DNA from: Paludibacteraceae bacterium
Lineage (GTDB): Bacteria; Bacteroidota; Bacteroidia; Bacteroidales; Paludibacteraceae
Direction of reading: 5' to 3'
DNA length: 64,000 nt
NCBI GenBank assembly: GCA_017962085.1
Contig: JAGCWA010000046.1
Coordinates: 1 to 64,000, forward strand
A model generated the notes under the pieces. That model saw nothing but the letters and a program-made list of their open reading frames with translations, was not told the origin of the DNA and made no database searches. The position numbers and the translations under genes are program-made. This document shows positions 2,213 to 7,526 of this stretch, in pieces. The stretch's first letter is position 1. Each line of letters starts with the position of its first letter.

Positions 2213-5179
2213 TTATTTCAAAACTGTCTTGATTGATTTGTTTTCGCAGATTACGACGTAGATTCCTGATGCCAGATGTCCGTTGAATTGGGTGATGTCA
2301 CGTCCAAGAGCGTCAAGGATGCGGAATCCTTCTTTGTTGACCGAAATACGGCCCTCGGAGGTTGTCACCACGATGTCGTCCGCATCGATGTCAGCAACGC
2401 TTACTGATTCCTTGTCGATGAATATGGCCGTCAATGTGCAGTTTGCGTCCACTGTCAATGTGATTGTGTCCGATTTCGCCTGCTTTTCTGTCAGGGTGAT
2501 GCCTTCCGCCTCCCAGTGGGAGAATACGTAGCCGTTCTTTACGAATATGTATGCGATGGCCTCTCCAGTCTCGCAATCAGGCCATTGCTTGATGAAAGCC
2601 TTGCCACCATAGTTGTTAGTCTCATTGTCGGTTTTCTCCTGAATCGTCAGCGTGTAAGGATATTCCCCTTGAACATACTCTGCTTGGTATCCTGGAGCCT
2701 CCTTGTATGCGCTTACCGCATTACAAGGAACGATGATTTTTGGCAACGGACCTGAGGTGATGGACACATCCGATAGAATTGTGTTTCCGTCAGTATTGAC
2801 AGGCGTCTCGGTCTTAAATATGATCTCTTCCAATTCATAGACGTAATAGAATGCGCCCTTGCCGATTTTGGTGACTGAGCTAGGGATTTCGATTCGTGAG
2901 AAGTGGCAGTATTGGAATGCGCACTCGTCGATCTCTTCCAGTTTGCTAGGCAAGACAACTTTTGTCGCGGTGAGGTTTTGGAACGCACGCTTGCCGATGA
3001 ATTTCACACCTTCCGGAAGGATCAGTTCTTTTACGCTGTCTATCTCGGCGAACGCATACTCTTCGATACTCTCTATGGTAGACGGTAAATCGATGCTCTT
3101 CAAATTTGATTGGGACATGAACGCATACCCGCCGATATTTGTCACGCCTTCGGATATGATCAGATGTTTGATGTCCAAAGACTTCCATGGAGCTTCTCTC
3201 CTGGTGTTGTAGCTCTTCATTAAGCCTGTTCCCTTCAATGCCAATGTGCCAGTTTCCTCGTCGAATGCCCATAGGATATTTGAGCCATCTTCTTCCGCAC
3301 CACATACGTTTGCTGGATCGAAGGTGAAATCGTCAATTGTCAGGATCTCCGGTTTCTGAGGGCCTTCAGAATCGCAAACCACCTGGAGCTCTACTGCTTC
3401 GTCTTCGTCGGTCTCGCTGTTGCTTTCTTGGTATGCGGAGAAGAGTTCTTTGTAGGTTTCCAACGCATCGCAAGGCACAACGATTTCCGGTCTGTCTGTT
3501 GCGTCCTCTTTTTTGAATATGTTATTTAAATCGGGGATTGACGGAGGAGTCTTTCCTGCGAAATGAATCTTTTCCAGGTCTTCGCAATATACGAATGCGT
3601 ATTTGCCTATCTTTGCCATTGTGGATGGCAGATAAATCTCCTTGATGTCCTCGGTCATGAGGAATGCCATTGAGCCTATTGTCGTTATGCCTTCGGATAC
3701 GCTAACATAATGGTACTTGTCTTGAGTCATTGTGTATGGAGGATAATCCCAATACGAGTATTCCTCCATTTCCCCCTCTCCGGTCAGGTACAGGGTGTCG
3801 TTTTGGATTGACCAAGCGATGTTTTCCCCGCCATCTTTTCCGCAGAACGAAGATTGGGAGAAGTATGCGTCAACATATGCGGATTGTGTGATTGTGAATT
3901 CTATTTCAGGGTTTTTCTTCTGCTCATCCGTCAGCAAGTTCTCTGGGTATGTTTCCCAATAAAGGAATTCGTGGCCTTCTTCCGGGATGGCGATCACCTT
4001 GTATGTTTGGCTTGTCTCTGTCTCTTCCAATCGGGTCACGTCAATATCACCCATACCGAAGACGTCGGTGAAGAGTGAGATGTTGGTGGACGTGCCACCA
4101 CCGTATTCATATTCTATGTTGGCGGTGATGGTGGCTGGTGTCGTCAAATCCACGGTGATCTCAGTTTTGTGCAAGTCCGCTTCCGGCACTTCATAGCTTC
4201 CCTCCCAAGTCACTTTGTAGTTTGTAGACCACAAATCAACACTTAGTTTGTAAATGTTCTTTTCGCAGTCAACCGGTGTGATTGTCAAAGGTCCATTCGA
4301 GTTGTCGTTTGAGGATATTTCCGAACCATTAGGCCAGCTTGGAATGATCTTTGAGTCGTAAAAATTGCTTTTTTGGATAGCTTTAACGGCCTCTGGGGTG
4401 TATGCTTTGCAATTGATTACGAATACGGTTTTCACATCTACCGTCGTGAAGTTGTTGCCTCCAGTCACTGCGGGGAATGTCTCTCCCAGGAATTTGATCG
4501 TGTCCAATTTGCAATAGTGGAATGCCGCCTCCTGTATTTCCTCCACCCATTCCGGTATGTTAATCGTTTTTAATTGTTTGCAGCCAAAAAACATGCATTC
4601 GGAGATAACCTTAATGTTCCGAGGAATCTCAAATGATTCAAATCCGCAATAAGCGAATACGTTCTCTCCTAACGTTGTCACGTTTCCTAAGTCGATGCTT
4701 TTTAATTTGGAGCATAATTGAAACGCATAGCCGGGAAGCTCTGTGACGTTCTTGGGGATGGTGATGGACGTCAATGATTCGCACTCGTAAAACGCCTCTT
4801 CCTCAATCGTTTTTAATCCCTCTGGCAGTTGGATGCTGGTGAGTGCCTTGCATTCCTCGAAGGCGGCTTTGCCGATCGATTCGATGGTGGAGGCTAATTG
4901 GACTTCTTCCAGATTGGAGAAACTCAAAAAGGCGTGTTTGCCGACGTTGGTCACTCCTTCGTTGATGATTACTTTCTTCACATCATCTTTAAGGTAAGAC
5001 CATTCTGGGTTGATGTATGTGTCACCGAACACGTCCGTGGTGTACACATTCATTTCCCCCTCTCCGGAAAATGTTAATGTTTTTGTTGTTTCGTCGTATT
5101 CAAATGTCACTTCCGCAAATAAGGAAGTCGACGAAAGCGATAATGCTGTCGCAATCGCAATAGTAGTAAAATTTCGCAT
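2213..5179 (-). CDS. BspA-like leucine-rich repeat surface protein with T9SS sorting tail
   Basis: A 988-residue protein. A signal peptide (about residues 1-22, ending SLFA) is followed by three similar blocks starting near residues 23, 447 and 640. Each has a short beta motif (TLTFSGEGEM, TLYLTGEGEM, TLALKGTGLM) followed by BspA-type leucine-rich repeats of the form I-x-x-x-A-F-x-x-C. Segments with aromatic signatures (FLYWE near 410, FSHWE near 900) resemble the divergent InlB-type beta repeat. The last ~75 residues (FRILDALGRDI ... GIYVVICENKSIKTVLK) match the type A C-terminal sorting domain of the type IX secretion system, predicting export across the outer membrane and anchoring or release. 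Single gene with its own promoter and terminator. Confidence 0.88.
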   Translation of the reverse strand: MRNFTTIAIATALSLSSTSLFAEVTFEYDETTKTLTFSGEGEMNVYTTDVFGDTYINPEWSYLKDDVKKVIINEGVTNVGKHAFLSFSNLEEVQLASTIESIGKAAFEECKALTSIQLPEGLKTIEEEAFYECESLTSITIPKNVTELPGYAFQLCSKLKSIDLGNVTTLGENVFAYCGFESFEIPRNIKVISECMFFGCKQLKTINIPEWVEEIQEAAFHYCKLDTIKFLGETFPAVTGGNNFTTVDVKTVFVINCKAYTPEAVKAIQKSNFYDSKIIPSWPNGSEISSNDNSNGPLTITPVDCEKNIYKLSVDLWSTNYKVTWEGSYEVPEADLHKTEITVDLTTPATITANIEYEYGGGTSTNISLFTDVFGMGDIDVTRLEETETSQTYKVIAIPEEGHEFLYWETYPENLLTDEQKKNPEIEFTITQSAYVDAYFSQSSFCGKDGGENIAWSIQNDTLYLTGEGEMEEYSYWDYPPYTMTQDKYHYVSVSEGITTIGSMAFLMTEDIKEIYLPSTMAKIGKYAFVYCEDLEKIHFAGKTPPSIPDLNNIFKKEDATDRPEIVVPCDALETYKELFSAYQESNSETDEDEAVELQVVCDSEGPQKPEILTIDDFTFDPANVCGAEEDGSNILWAFDEETGTLALKGTGLMKSYNTRREAPWKSLDIKHLIISEGVTNIGGYAFMSQSNLKSIDLPSTIESIEEYAFAEIDSVKELILPEGVKFIGKRAFQNLTATKVVLPSKLEEIDECAFQYCHFSRIEIPSSVTKIGKGAFYYVYELEEIIFKTETPVNTDGNTILSDVSITSGPLPKIIVPCNAVSAYKEAPGYQAEYVQGEYPYTLTIQEKTDNETNNYGGKAFIKQWPDCETGEAIAYIFVKNGYVFSHWEAEGITLTEKQAKSDTITLTVDANCTLTAIFIDKESVSVADIDADDIVVTTSEGRISVNKEGFRILDALGRDITQFNGHLASGIYVVICENKSIKTVLK

Positions 5180-5251: not shown

Positions 5252-5543
5252 CACTAATAGACCATTTTTGTATTATTTAACACAAATTTTGCTTTTGTGC
5301 CTGCTACAGGTTCGTTTGCTCAATTGTCACCCGTTGCGTTGTCTGATGTCGTTGCTTTCTCTTTCGCCTCCCTTTGGGGAGATTTGTTGCATAATATGCG
5401 GATAATATGCATTTAATATGCGTTGTGCGGTTGAATGTGCTTATGTGTTTCTGTCTTTTTGTTCTGAATTGTATATTTGTCGTGTCTTTTTGCCGTTTTA
5501 TGTGTCGTTTTTGCGTTTGTTTTTAAAAATTCTTTCGTTTTTG
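5252..5543. other. Intergenic stretch, no supported gene
   Basis: T-rich region between the divergent BspA-like gene and miniprotein cassette A. It contains three close AATATGC repeats (5391-5419). An open frame running through the right part has no motif, an odd Phe/Val-rich composition, and overlaps the cassette out of frame, so I do not call it. Confidence 0.5.
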
Positions 5544-5574
5544 TTTGTCGTTTTGAAAATTATGTATATATTTG
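5544..5574 (+). promoter_or_regulatory. Promoter of miniprotein cassette A
   Basis: TTTG (5544-5547), 19 bases, TATATTTG (5567-5574). This is an exact fit to the Bacteroidetes consensus and is conserved in copy B. The predicted transcript starts near 5581, leaving a leader of only about 12 nt before the first ATG. Confidence 0.8.
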
Positions 5575-5592
5575 TATTGTTGTTAAACGAAG

Positions 5593-5712
5593 ATGTTTCA
5601 CTTATTAAATTATACGACTATGGTTTTAGGATTATTTTTTTCAGGAGTGTTGGCGTTTTCAGTAGTGACGAGAATTTATATGGAGTCAAAGGAGTTGAAA
5701 AACAATTATTAA
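5593..5712 (+). CDS. 39-residue membrane miniprotein, copy A
   Basis: The frame encodes MFHLLNYTTMVLG, one hydrophobic helix (about residues 9-26, FFSGVLAFSVV), and a charged tail ending ESKELKNNY. An in-frame internal ATG at 5620 would give a 30-residue form. Copy B at 7242 encodes the same layout with seven substitutions and a one-codon deletion. Several third-position synonymous changes and the in-frame indel indicate that the frame is translated. A single-helix inner-membrane miniprotein is inferred. Size and layout fit regulators of membrane complexes or hydrophobic type I toxins, but there is no direct evidence for either. I do not recognise a named family. Confidence 0.7.
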   Translation: MFHLLNYTTMVLGLFFSGVLAFSVVTRIYMESKELKNNY

Positions 5713-5722
5713 ACTAAATGTT

Positions 5723-5749
5723 ATGGATCAGATAGAAAACGACAACTAA
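5723..5749 (+). other. Conserved 8-codon ORF (MDQIENDN) in the 3' part of cassette A
   Basis: ATG GAT CAG ATA GAA AAC GAC AAC TAA follows the miniprotein stop by 10 bases and ends at the terminator stem. It is 100 percent identical in copy B, unlike the miniprotein gene. It may be a translated micro-ORF or simply a conserved RNA segment. Sequence identity alone cannot separate these. Confidence 0.4.
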
Positions 5750-5786
5750 AAGCCTCAATGTTCGGGAGTAAACATTGAGGCTTTTT
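5748..5786 (+). terminator. Terminator of cassette A
   Basis: A near-perfect stem AAAAGCCTCAATGTT/AACATTGAGGCTTTT with an 8-base loop, then T-run. The identical hairpin ends copy B. Confidence 0.92.
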
Positions 5787-5975
5787 GTTTGTTATGTGGT
5801 TTCGTCCGGTTCGAAAAACTGTTTTGTCTCTGCCTTGTTCGTTTTTTCCCGTAATTATATGTTTTGTGTGGGTTCTCCCTTGTCACCCGGCGTGTTTTCT
5901 GCTTTTGGTGTGATTGTGTCGTTTCGCACATTTCAGAGACGTGACAATATGTGGCGTTATCGTTGTGCCTTATGG

Positions 5976-6662
5976 TCAATGTTCATTGCTTGATTGAGGT
6001 GGGTTGGAAGGCTCTATTGCATTGAGATAGTATTCCGGAGTCAGAGGTAATCCTGTTGGTGTGTTGTATCTCTCAAATTCCTTTTCGGACGGAGATGGAT
6101 TGCACACATAAAACGCCTGGGTTTTGTCCACGTCATAGGCGATTAGGACTCTTTGCCGCTCCCTATATGCTGTCTTTTCGACCCTTTTGTGGGCAAATAA
6201 CAATTCGTCGCTTTGGGGTGCGTCAAAATACACGTACTTTTTGCTATTCTTTACTACTACAGCTGAAATAACCTTCGCTGTGTGATTCTTTTTCCTAAGC
6301 AGGAACTCCATTAATTCATCTTTTGTCGGTGTGTCTTTTAGACTGTGTATTTTGTTGCTCAACTTCACGCCGTTTGTGCAATACTCTATCTGCAATTCAT
6401 TTGGATGGGGTTCGTAGCACTTTGTACTGTAGATGTTGTAGTAGAACGATTCGTTTTCTTTCGGCAGCTCTGGAAAAGAAACTATTATTGTGTCTTTGCG
6501 TCGTACGTTCCATTTCCTAGAGATTCCTATTTGCTCTTTCCTTGTTCTCACATCATTGAATAGACATACTGTACAACGAGGATTACCCCAGAACGGATAT
6601 GTGGATTTCACAACAGAGGTATACACCATGCCGTGTTTTTTTGCTGTCGTGGCATAAAACAC
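5976..6662 (-). CDS. Hypothetical protein, 228 residues, between the miniprotein cassettes
   Basis: No recognised family. The first ~60 residues (YTSVVKSTYPF, VRRKDTIIVSFPE) have a beta-rich rhythm reminiscent of DUF3592-type domains, in which a short extracytoplasmic beta barrel follows membrane helices. Here the helices could be supplied by the 82-residue membrane protein encoded 11 bases upstream. The middle is Lys-rich and the end is polar (SNPPQSSNEH). No signal peptide is evident at the chosen start. An alternative start at Met12 is possible. The DUF3592 resemblance is weak and visual only. Confidence 0.6.
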   Translation of the reverse strand: MFYATTAKKHGMVYTSVVKSTYPFWGNPRCTVCLFNDVRTRKEQIGISRKWNVRRKDTIIVSFPELPKENESFYYNIYSTKCYEPHPNELQIEYCTNGVKLSNKIHSLKDTPTKDELMEFLLRKKNHTAKVISAVVVKNSKKYVYFDAPQSDELLFAHKRVEKTAYRERQRVLIAYDVDKTQAFYVCNPSPSEKEFERYNTPTGLPLTPEYYLNAIEPSNPPQSSNEH

Positions 6663-6673
6663 CTTACGTTCTA

Positions 6674-6922
6674 TTACATATATTGAAAAGAAACTAGAAA
6701 AAAAGCGATAACACTATATATAAAAAGACATATCAAAATATCTCCATCCCAGCTGTCCCAATTAAAAAGGCAATATACAATAAATAACACAATATATATT
6801 AGGATTTCGAAGCCGAATCCTACTCCCGTGTCAAATAGATAATATAATCTGTAATGGAATAGAATTAGCACGGCTACAAGAATTGTGCCTATGATAGGAA
6901 TATGTTTTTTTACTCTACTCAT
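6674..6922 (-). CDS. Small integral membrane protein, 82 residues
   Basis: After a short basic start (MSRVKKH) there are about three hydrophobic helices: residues 8-23 (IPIIGTILVAVLILF), roughly 38-53 (FEILIYIVLFIVYCLF) and 62-80 (DILICLFIYSVIAFFLV). It is the first gene of a two-gene minus-strand operon with the 228-residue protein, 11 bases apart. No family recognised. The pair lies between two directly repeated cassettes and is convergent with copy A. Confidence 0.6.
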   Translation of the reverse strand: MSRVKKHIPIIGTILVAVLILFHYRLYYLFDTGVGFGFEILIYIVLFIVYCLFNWDSWDGDILICLFIYSVIAFFLVSFQYM

Positions 6923-7191
6923 CGTATATTGTATAGCTTTTTATGCGCTTCCCTTGCGAAAATAATAATTTCCAAGAAGTGTGACAAATTGTATTTCAAA
7001 GGAAGTGTCAGCGCAAAGGGTTTTGTCTTCTATTGTATACTATCCAAATATTATTCGCTAATTATGCATGTTGGTGCTTCGTGTGCTTGCTTTGTTGTTT
7101 TCTTTTTGTCTGTAATCTTGGCTATTTGTTTGACATTTTGTTATTGAATATTACAAAAATCGCTTGTGTAGTAAAATTTTTATCATTTTTG
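6923..7191. other. Intergenic stretch, no supported gene
   Basis: AT-rich sequence upstream of the membrane-protein operon and before cassette B. A frame from 6902 to 7147 on the plus strand overlaps the start of the minus-strand gene, lacks motifs and is rejected. No exact TAnnTTTG element was found for the minus-strand operon. The nearest sequence is TACAATTTG, one base too long. Confidence 0.5.
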
Positions 7192-7222
7192 TTTGTCATT
7201 TTGAAAAATATGCATATCTTTG
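7192..7222 (+). promoter_or_regulatory. Promoter of miniprotein cassette B
   Basis: TTTG (7192-7195), 19 bases, TATCTTTG (7215-7222). The -7 element differs from copy A only at the unconstrained nn positions of the consensus. Confidence 0.8.
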
Positions 7223-7241
7223 TATTGTTGTTAAACGAAAG

Positions 7242-7358
7242 ATGTTTCACTTATTAAATTATACGACTATGGTACTAGGATTAATTTTTTCAGTGGTGTT
7301 GACGTTTTCAGTTGCAAGAATCTGTGTAGAGGCAAAAGAGTTGAAGAACAACTATTAA
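7242..7358 (+). CDS. 38-residue membrane miniprotein, copy B
   Basis: The frame encodes MFHLLNYTTMVLG, a hydrophobic helix (LIFSVVLTFSVA) and the tail EAKELKNNY. Compared with copy A it lacks one residue after the helix and differs at about seven positions, all in the helix and the segment just after it. The first ten codons are unchanged at nucleotide level and the Lys-Glu-Leu-Lys-Asn-Asn-Tyr tail is kept through synonymous changes (AAG/AAA, AAT/AAC). An internal ATG at 7269 gives an alternative 29-residue product. The next gene, nspC, is convergent and separate. Confidence 0.7.
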   Translation: MFHLLNYTTMVLGLIFSVVLTFSVARICVEAKELKNNY

Positions 7359-7369
7359 ATTTAAATGTT

Positions 7370-7396
7370 ATGGATCAGATAGAAAACGACAACTAA
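7370..7396 (+). other. Conserved 8-codon ORF (MDQIENDN), copy B
   Basis: Identical to 5723-5749, including flanking bases up to the terminator. It starts 11 bases after the miniprotein stop. Confidence 0.4.
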
Positions 7397-7434
7397 AAGC
7401 CTCAATGTTCGGGAGTAAACATTGAGGCTTTTTT
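7395..7434 (+). terminator. Terminator of cassette B
   Basis: Same stem-loop as copy A, followed by TTTTTT. It lies about 90 bases from the convergent end of nspC. Confidence 0.92.
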
Positions 7435-7526
7435 GTGTCCATGAACGTTATGTCTCGGATGATTCCGTAAAATCTATTCTGCTTGTTTTCAGCGTTCTAT
7501 ACTTGTTTTTGCGCTTCAATCCTCTC

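Follow-up and report, generated by a model that had tools for sequence, protein, structure and literature searches.

Type I toxin peptides such as Fst/Ldr, Ibs, HokB and DinQ are tiny single-helix membrane peptides, often present in tandem or at multiple loci. KdpF, CydX and AcrZ are small accessory membrane proteins of about 30 amino acids with one helix, and the 'Smalltalk' proteins are very small hydrophobic proteins of Bacteroidetes. Here we describe twin cassettes, U1 and U2, within a 64,000-nucleotide stretch of a Paludibacteraceae genome (assembly GCA_017962085.1, contig JAGCWA010000046.1; hereafter the window), together with their relatives. The family resembles type I toxins in its tiny single-helix peptides and its tandem or multiple loci, but class I, the class to which U1 and U2 belong, carries no full antisense promoter, and in 38 of 39 cassettes the terminator is fused with a second, hydrophilic ORF. 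Length and the single helix are shared with KdpF, CydX and AcrZ, from which the family differs in having tandem paralogues, its own promoter and terminator, and no partner gene common to all contexts. Like the Smalltalk proteins, the peptides are very small, hydrophobic and found in Bacteroidetes; however, no NCBIfam match is so named (by name in release 20.0, no match at E ≤ 1 for 22 representatives, the presence of the model there being unconfirmed). Finally, a short ORF at which a ribosome could mask a terminator recalls the pyrL-type leader-peptide attenuators as treated in PMC5021804, but the family is without a constant downstream gene, and its short ORF follows the operon products rather than preceding them.

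Consistent with the preliminary description, which knew of no named family, NCBIfam, Pfam, PHROGs and PADLOC gave no credible match to the 22 representatives. The lowest E-values were those of KdpF (0.0039) and Madanin (0.0094), each for one member, and KdpF was the best match among KdpF/CydX-type models. Term searches of the open-licence literature returned no title or abstract describing such units.

Anatomy and coding content of the twin cassettes

U1 and U2 are direct repeats at window positions 5535–5786 and 7180–7435, 89% identical, with ORF starts 1649 nt apart (Table 1). Much of the preliminary account of these units stands: each has a full TTTG-N19-TAnnTTTG promoter and the same hairpin terminator, and is in that sense autonomous; the limits of the repeat are those of the transcription unit, similarity stopping just beyond the promoter on one side and the terminator on the other; and the frame holds a codon-sized indel and seven residue changes. 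The 3' segment, reported as conserved, is almost identical in the two units, but the ORF inside it, MDQIENDN, fused to the terminator, had been overlooked, and a second mini-ORF in both U1 and U2 replaces the earlier picture of a one-gene cassette. The −7/−33 consensus of the cassette promoters is the Bacteroides one, as given in PMC7366714. Within the window, AGCCTCAATG is confined to the two terminator hairpins, and the 3.37-Mb genome (59 contigs) holds no third close copy at E ≤ 10 besides short or terminator-only matches. At the cassettes, Rfam models gave no match better than sub-threshold. A heat-shock-like upstream box, TGTCATTTTG, was discarded, as it occurs seven times in the window against 7.19 expected and its longer form has a single genome match.

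Table 1. Features of cassettes U1 and U2, in window coordinates
Feature	Position	Strand	Remark
U1 promoter, TTTG-N19-TATATTTG	5544..5574	+	Same element type 5' of 36/39 family cassettes
U1 leader (MFHLLNYTT in the preliminary description)	5593..5619	+	Judged non-coding; initiation motif TTATACGACT at its end
U1 ORF A, 30-aa single-helix peptide MVLGLFFSGVLAFSVVTRIYMESKELKNNY	5620..5712	+	Purifying selection; AlphaFold2 helix
U1 ORF B, 8-aa MDQIENDN	5723..5749	+	Stop codon 2 nt into terminator stem
U1 intrinsic terminator	5748..5788	+	
U2 promoter, TTTG-N19-TATCTTTG	7192..7222	+	
U2 leader, MFHLLNYTT frame	7242..7268	+	Judged non-coding
U2 ORF A, 29-aa peptide MVLGLIFSVVLTFSVARICVEAKELKNNY	7269..7358	+	
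U2 ORF B, MDQIENDN	7370..7396	+	
U2 intrinsic terminator	7395..7435	+	

The length of 38/39 residues first assigned to the membrane peptide (ORF A) is not supported by its relatives. The frame opening with MFHL is broken in four of 15 class I cassettes, by a TAA in G014, by a 2-nt deletion in G005b and by absence of such an ATG in G011 and G012, whereas the frame from the second methionine (MVLG) is open in 15/15. Homologous cassettes with a broken frame and kept flanks, which the preliminary description regarded as speaking against a genuine gene, therefore exist for the first nine codons (4/15) but not for the MVLG frame (0/15). Across 12 leaders, pN/pS was 0.85 in frame against 4.56 and 1.33 in the other frames; with few changes, pN/pS is by itself a weak test, and the class I leader appears to be under little amino-acid constraint. 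In addition, a TTACGACTATG-like start motif is repeated 5' of tandem copies in G011, G012, G050, G081, G097 and G133, with A at −3 and −6 in most instances; in Flavobacterium, adenines at these positions raise initiation, according to PMC6847099. From the breaks in the MFHL frame, the open MVLG frame and the recurrent start motif, translation of ORF A most likely starts at Met10, yielding 29/30 residues. Elsewhere, the initiation motif TTATACGACTATGG lies at an annotated CDS start of a gut microvirus (OM869710.1, L232 401–428) that is otherwise unrelated, the match to the cassette being 28 bases only. Similar motifs also stand 5' of unrelated open frames in G283 and G215.

AlphaFold2 predicts one helix for the U1 peptide (residues 2–29, mean pLDDT 88, pTM 0.38), in line with the single-helix assignment made from the sequence. 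For ORF A, all pairwise comparisons among 18 class I copies together gave a pN/pS of 0.38 in frame, compared with 0.84 and 0.99 when the two alternative frames were read, figures that are descriptive because the rows are mutually related. Between U1 and U2, dN/dS was 0.14, from 9.5 synonymous and 7.5 non-synonymous differences, and 14 listed ORF A pairs ranged from 0.04 to 0.77, the top value coming from two tandem copies in G011. On this comparison across many copies, selection maintains class I ORF A at the amino-acid level; the selection pattern supports the real translation proposed earlier, while the diversifying change raised as a possibility gives way to purifying selection. For the class II cassettes of G004, G007, G015 and G010, the frame-specific signal is absent from ORF 1 (0.63/0.64/0.49) and ORF 2 (0.53/0.44/0.91) and present in ORF B.

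A wider cassette family in several genomic contexts

A search of Bacteroidales genomes, as the preliminary description had suggested, revealed a wider family: 39 cassettes examined from 23 genomes in three genera of related gut bacteria, comprising all 16 genomes of genus g1, three of g4 (G018, G050, G075) and four of g20 (G081, G097, G110, G133). Profiles were widened stepwise, with up to 358 family genomes searched, and the count of 39 is a minimum: weaker hits were only partly read (G335, for example, at E 0.0035, was left out), and a cassette cut by a contig end (L219) was also set aside. A strict promoter of the housekeeping type precedes 36 of the 39 cassettes, against a mean of 0.51 in mononucleotide shuffles, and each operon contains one to three tandem single-helix ORF A copies. 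These total 63, of which 51 are distinct, with lengths of 23–38 aa (median 28), a low net charge (−1 to +3) and a charged C-terminal tail; the hydrophobic core is charge-free in 50 of the 51 distinct peptides, and after it comes [KR][VI], at positions 13–18 in all 51, a motif partly selected by the searches. In genus g20 (L204, L215, L216), a third tandem peptide bears a long Asn/Gln-rich tail, such as LNNNNNQNQHNRI.

Class I occurs in 13 of the 16 g1 genomes (12 by protein search, with G012 added by other searches), and all 13 also carry class II, a second class traced from a terminator-like DNA match in G004 and G007. G010 has class II only, and G002 and G008 a third type; class I is present twice in G005, as it is in the window genome. 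The class II cassette of the window genome lies on another contig (C7: 9653–9873; L209 3154–3496) and encodes MVTALVLSIAACFVAKVVMTFDTIKG, MIVATFLTISIAAVFGVKVYLEINSMSK and MEQNKKRRKQRKRPYSVRQ, followed by the terminator. Beyond the family, nothing fell below E 0.004 in the order with either the class I profile (393 genomes) or the wide profile (262 genomes), and weak hits at L172, L174, L175, L217, L218, L220 and L221 were, on reading, not considered to be cassettes. A pattern scan of the genome collection found 14 stretches, 13 of them in MAGs whose titles name Paludibacteraceae or Bacteroidales and, in several cases, rumen, omasum, reticulum or horse faeces; the fourteenth, in Caloramator, was read and taken as chance. 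Class I queries against phages and plasmids found no cassette, the two partial phage matches covering only the promoter or start region.

Class I is found in varied surroundings: next to nspC-like genes, near BspA-like genes, at two further sites unrelated to these and, in G014, at a contig end, the gene names being our reading of translations. Clustering of neighbours revealed no gene common to all class I contexts. Of 14 readable cassettes, 10 face a convergent downstream gene and four a co-directional one; three of these four (G004, G007, G015) share the same gene. Comparison of flanks shows mosaics: in G005a the 5' flank belongs to one locus type but the 3' flank to a different one, implying that class I units recombine. 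Genes for BspA-like leucine-rich repeat proteins, judged by translation, lie beside class I in G000, G005 and G006 (window 2213–5179; L054; L055), and the class I units appear to serve as points of recombination at which these genes are reshuffled. The class II cassettes of G004, G007, G010 and G015 (L168, L176–L178) converge on a gene whose C-terminus, in our reading of the translation, resembles that of TrkA (potassium uptake).

A short second frame at the terminator

Turning to ORF B, class I relatives of MDQIENDN include MDQTENDN, MDQVENDN, MDQTENDNR, MDQTDNCNK and MDQTDNQN. Over 15 rows, pN/pS was 0.21 in frame against 0.98 and 0.44 in the other frames; because the ORF spans only 8–19 codons and the rows are related, the signal is small, and one wrong frame is also low (0.44), so that the amino acids of class I ORF B are probably kept by selection. 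Among all cassettes, only G110 has the terminator but lacks the short hydrophilic ORF B. For the 37 cassettes in which our script located both elements, the ORF B stop always falls between −8 and +2 of the stem and in 25 ends 2 nt inside it (−2); G012.II, for which the script found no terminator, has the same arrangement by eye. Of 18 representatives, 17 have an ORF whose stop codon falls at the stem, where spacer shuffles would yield 0.79, a comparison whose tested range excludes the −8 position of G081.

Ordinary genes are arranged differently. We compared 26 large ORFs, drawn from 12 sources, that have a hairpin no more than 80 nt away. In 24 of them the stop lies 11–69 nt before the hairpin (median of the 26, about 26 nt), while the hairpins of the other two, both weak and A/T-rich, lie at −1 and −6; four of the 26 hairpins are cassette terminators seen from a converging neighbour, and some hairpins were counted from both sides. 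As set out in PMC5021804, a trailing ribosome can stop a terminator hairpin from forming, so that a stop codon at the stem is a placement that ordinary genes in these sources mostly avoid. Given their median spacing of 26 nt, the fusion of ORF B with the terminator looks to be under selection. The portion of PMC13323073 consulted contains nothing on stop-to-terminator spacing. The hairpin and ORF B are both retained in G014, where the terminator sequence differs. In G015 (L062 6047–6368), about 70 extra bases separate ORF A and ORF B relative to the near-identical G004, with ORF B and the terminator intact. The gap between the two class I ORFs is otherwise 2, 3, 10 or 11 nt within the genus (81 in G015); as the frame varies with the gap, a frameshift fusion of ORF A to ORF B was rejected. 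A conserved RNA structure was likewise rejected: RNAalifold on 12 class I units returned the terminator and pairings inside conserved coding sequence, with four of 42 pairs changed on both sides, three of them in the terminator.

Two main types of ORF B can be told apart by charge: 17 class I cassettes have an acidic one (net −1 to −3) and 16 class II cassettes an Arg-rich one (+5 to +8); of the others, five have a net charge of 0 or +1 and one lacks the ORF. Both main types occur in g1 and g4, and MDQ-type mini-ORFs (MDQQSDNDN, MDQQIEVNN), like Arg-rich ones, are found in a second genus.

Candidate roles for the cassettes

As a duplicated pair, U1 and U2 fall into class I of a family of stand-alone mini-operons that has no name as yet. 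We tentatively propose, with a probability of about 0.4, that peptide output in this family is limited by translation into the terminator. The ORF A peptides would insert into the inner membrane in the N-out/C-in orientation, where they would bind or perturb either membrane proteins or the bilayer itself. Judging from geometry, a ribosome finishing ORF B would cover the 5' arm of the terminator, and translation to the end of the mRNA would thus open the hairpin that ends and protects the transcript. Peptide output would thereby be self-limiting, and ribosome behaviour at the terminator may be tuned by the ORF B tail, which is acidic in class I and basic in class II.

Possibly, the peptides are instead small accessory subunits or regulators of a membrane complex in the manner of KdpF, CydX or AcrZ, with ORF B a plain peptide and a 3' end that is not gated by translation. 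The single helix, purifying selection and charged C-terminal tail would suit such a role, which we consider doubtful though a serious contender: known accessory peptides mostly sit with their partner, whereas class I occurs in several unrelated contexts, with differing neighbours and no partner gene common to all. Moreover, the KdpF model matched only one of 22 members (E 0.0039), and this explanation leaves the ORF B/terminator fusion unexplained. The same geometry could alternatively make ORF B and the terminator a ribosome-controlled attenuator of a downstream gene, since a short ORF does end at the terminator, as in a leader peptide, and G004, G007 and G015 share one co-directional gene there; but in class I the downstream gene differs among contexts and is convergent in most, and the conserved co-directional gene of leader-peptide attenuators is absent, making this very unlikely.

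A type I toxin-like peptide, repressed by antisense RNA or by the structure of its own mRNA, would account for the size, the small hydrophobic helix (charge-free cores in 50 of 51 peptides and one helix in U1), the tandem copies, the stand-alone units and their duplication. Putative type I systems are also reported in B. thetaiotaomicron (PMC7366714), and the phage host-killing family phrog_251 gave a weak match (E 0.17) to one of 22 members. Nevertheless, we regard such a toxin as unlikely. The preliminary description saw no antisense RNA, and a consensus scan, whose reach stops short of trans-encoded RNA, found no full antisense promoter among the 15 cassettes of class I. Moreover, the consensus fold of 12 class I units leaves the leader ahead of the start codon unpaired. 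A full antisense match at +43 does occur in six class II cassettes, the one in the window genome included, against 1.06 expected over the 39 cassettes, but all six lie at one place in a single near-identical clade; the −7 element alone occurs 16 times against 9.65 expected. The +43 match, inside the first ORF (L209, L171, L211–L214), may mark a genuine antisense start or be a chance match that became fixed in the clade. Operons with as many as three tandem, related, hydrophobic peptides of about 28 aa would also fit a leaderless multi-peptide bacteriocin, an idea made highly improbable by the low net charge (−1 to +3) and by class I contexts that share no gene and hence no fixed exporter or immunity gene, neighbours having been clustered rather than annotated.

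Returning to mini-operons limited by translation into the terminator, a more specific and improbable extension is that class I and class II within one genome make partner membrane helices, and that the tails fused to their terminators, being of opposite charge (acidic, −1 to −3; basic, +5 to +8), influence the ribosome while it melts the terminator. If so, each translated mRNA would be released or degraded in proportion to its translation, giving membrane-active peptides a built-in dose limiter with two different set points; the acid/base pairing of the classes makes for easy test design. Should the class I peptides prove toxic, they would represent membrane toxins for which no antisense antitoxin is apparent. 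The cassettes provide a searchable anatomy for a small-protein family that finds no credible match in four model libraries, and a testable case in which stop codon and terminator form one element, and in which translation may decide the fate of the transcript at the end of the operon.
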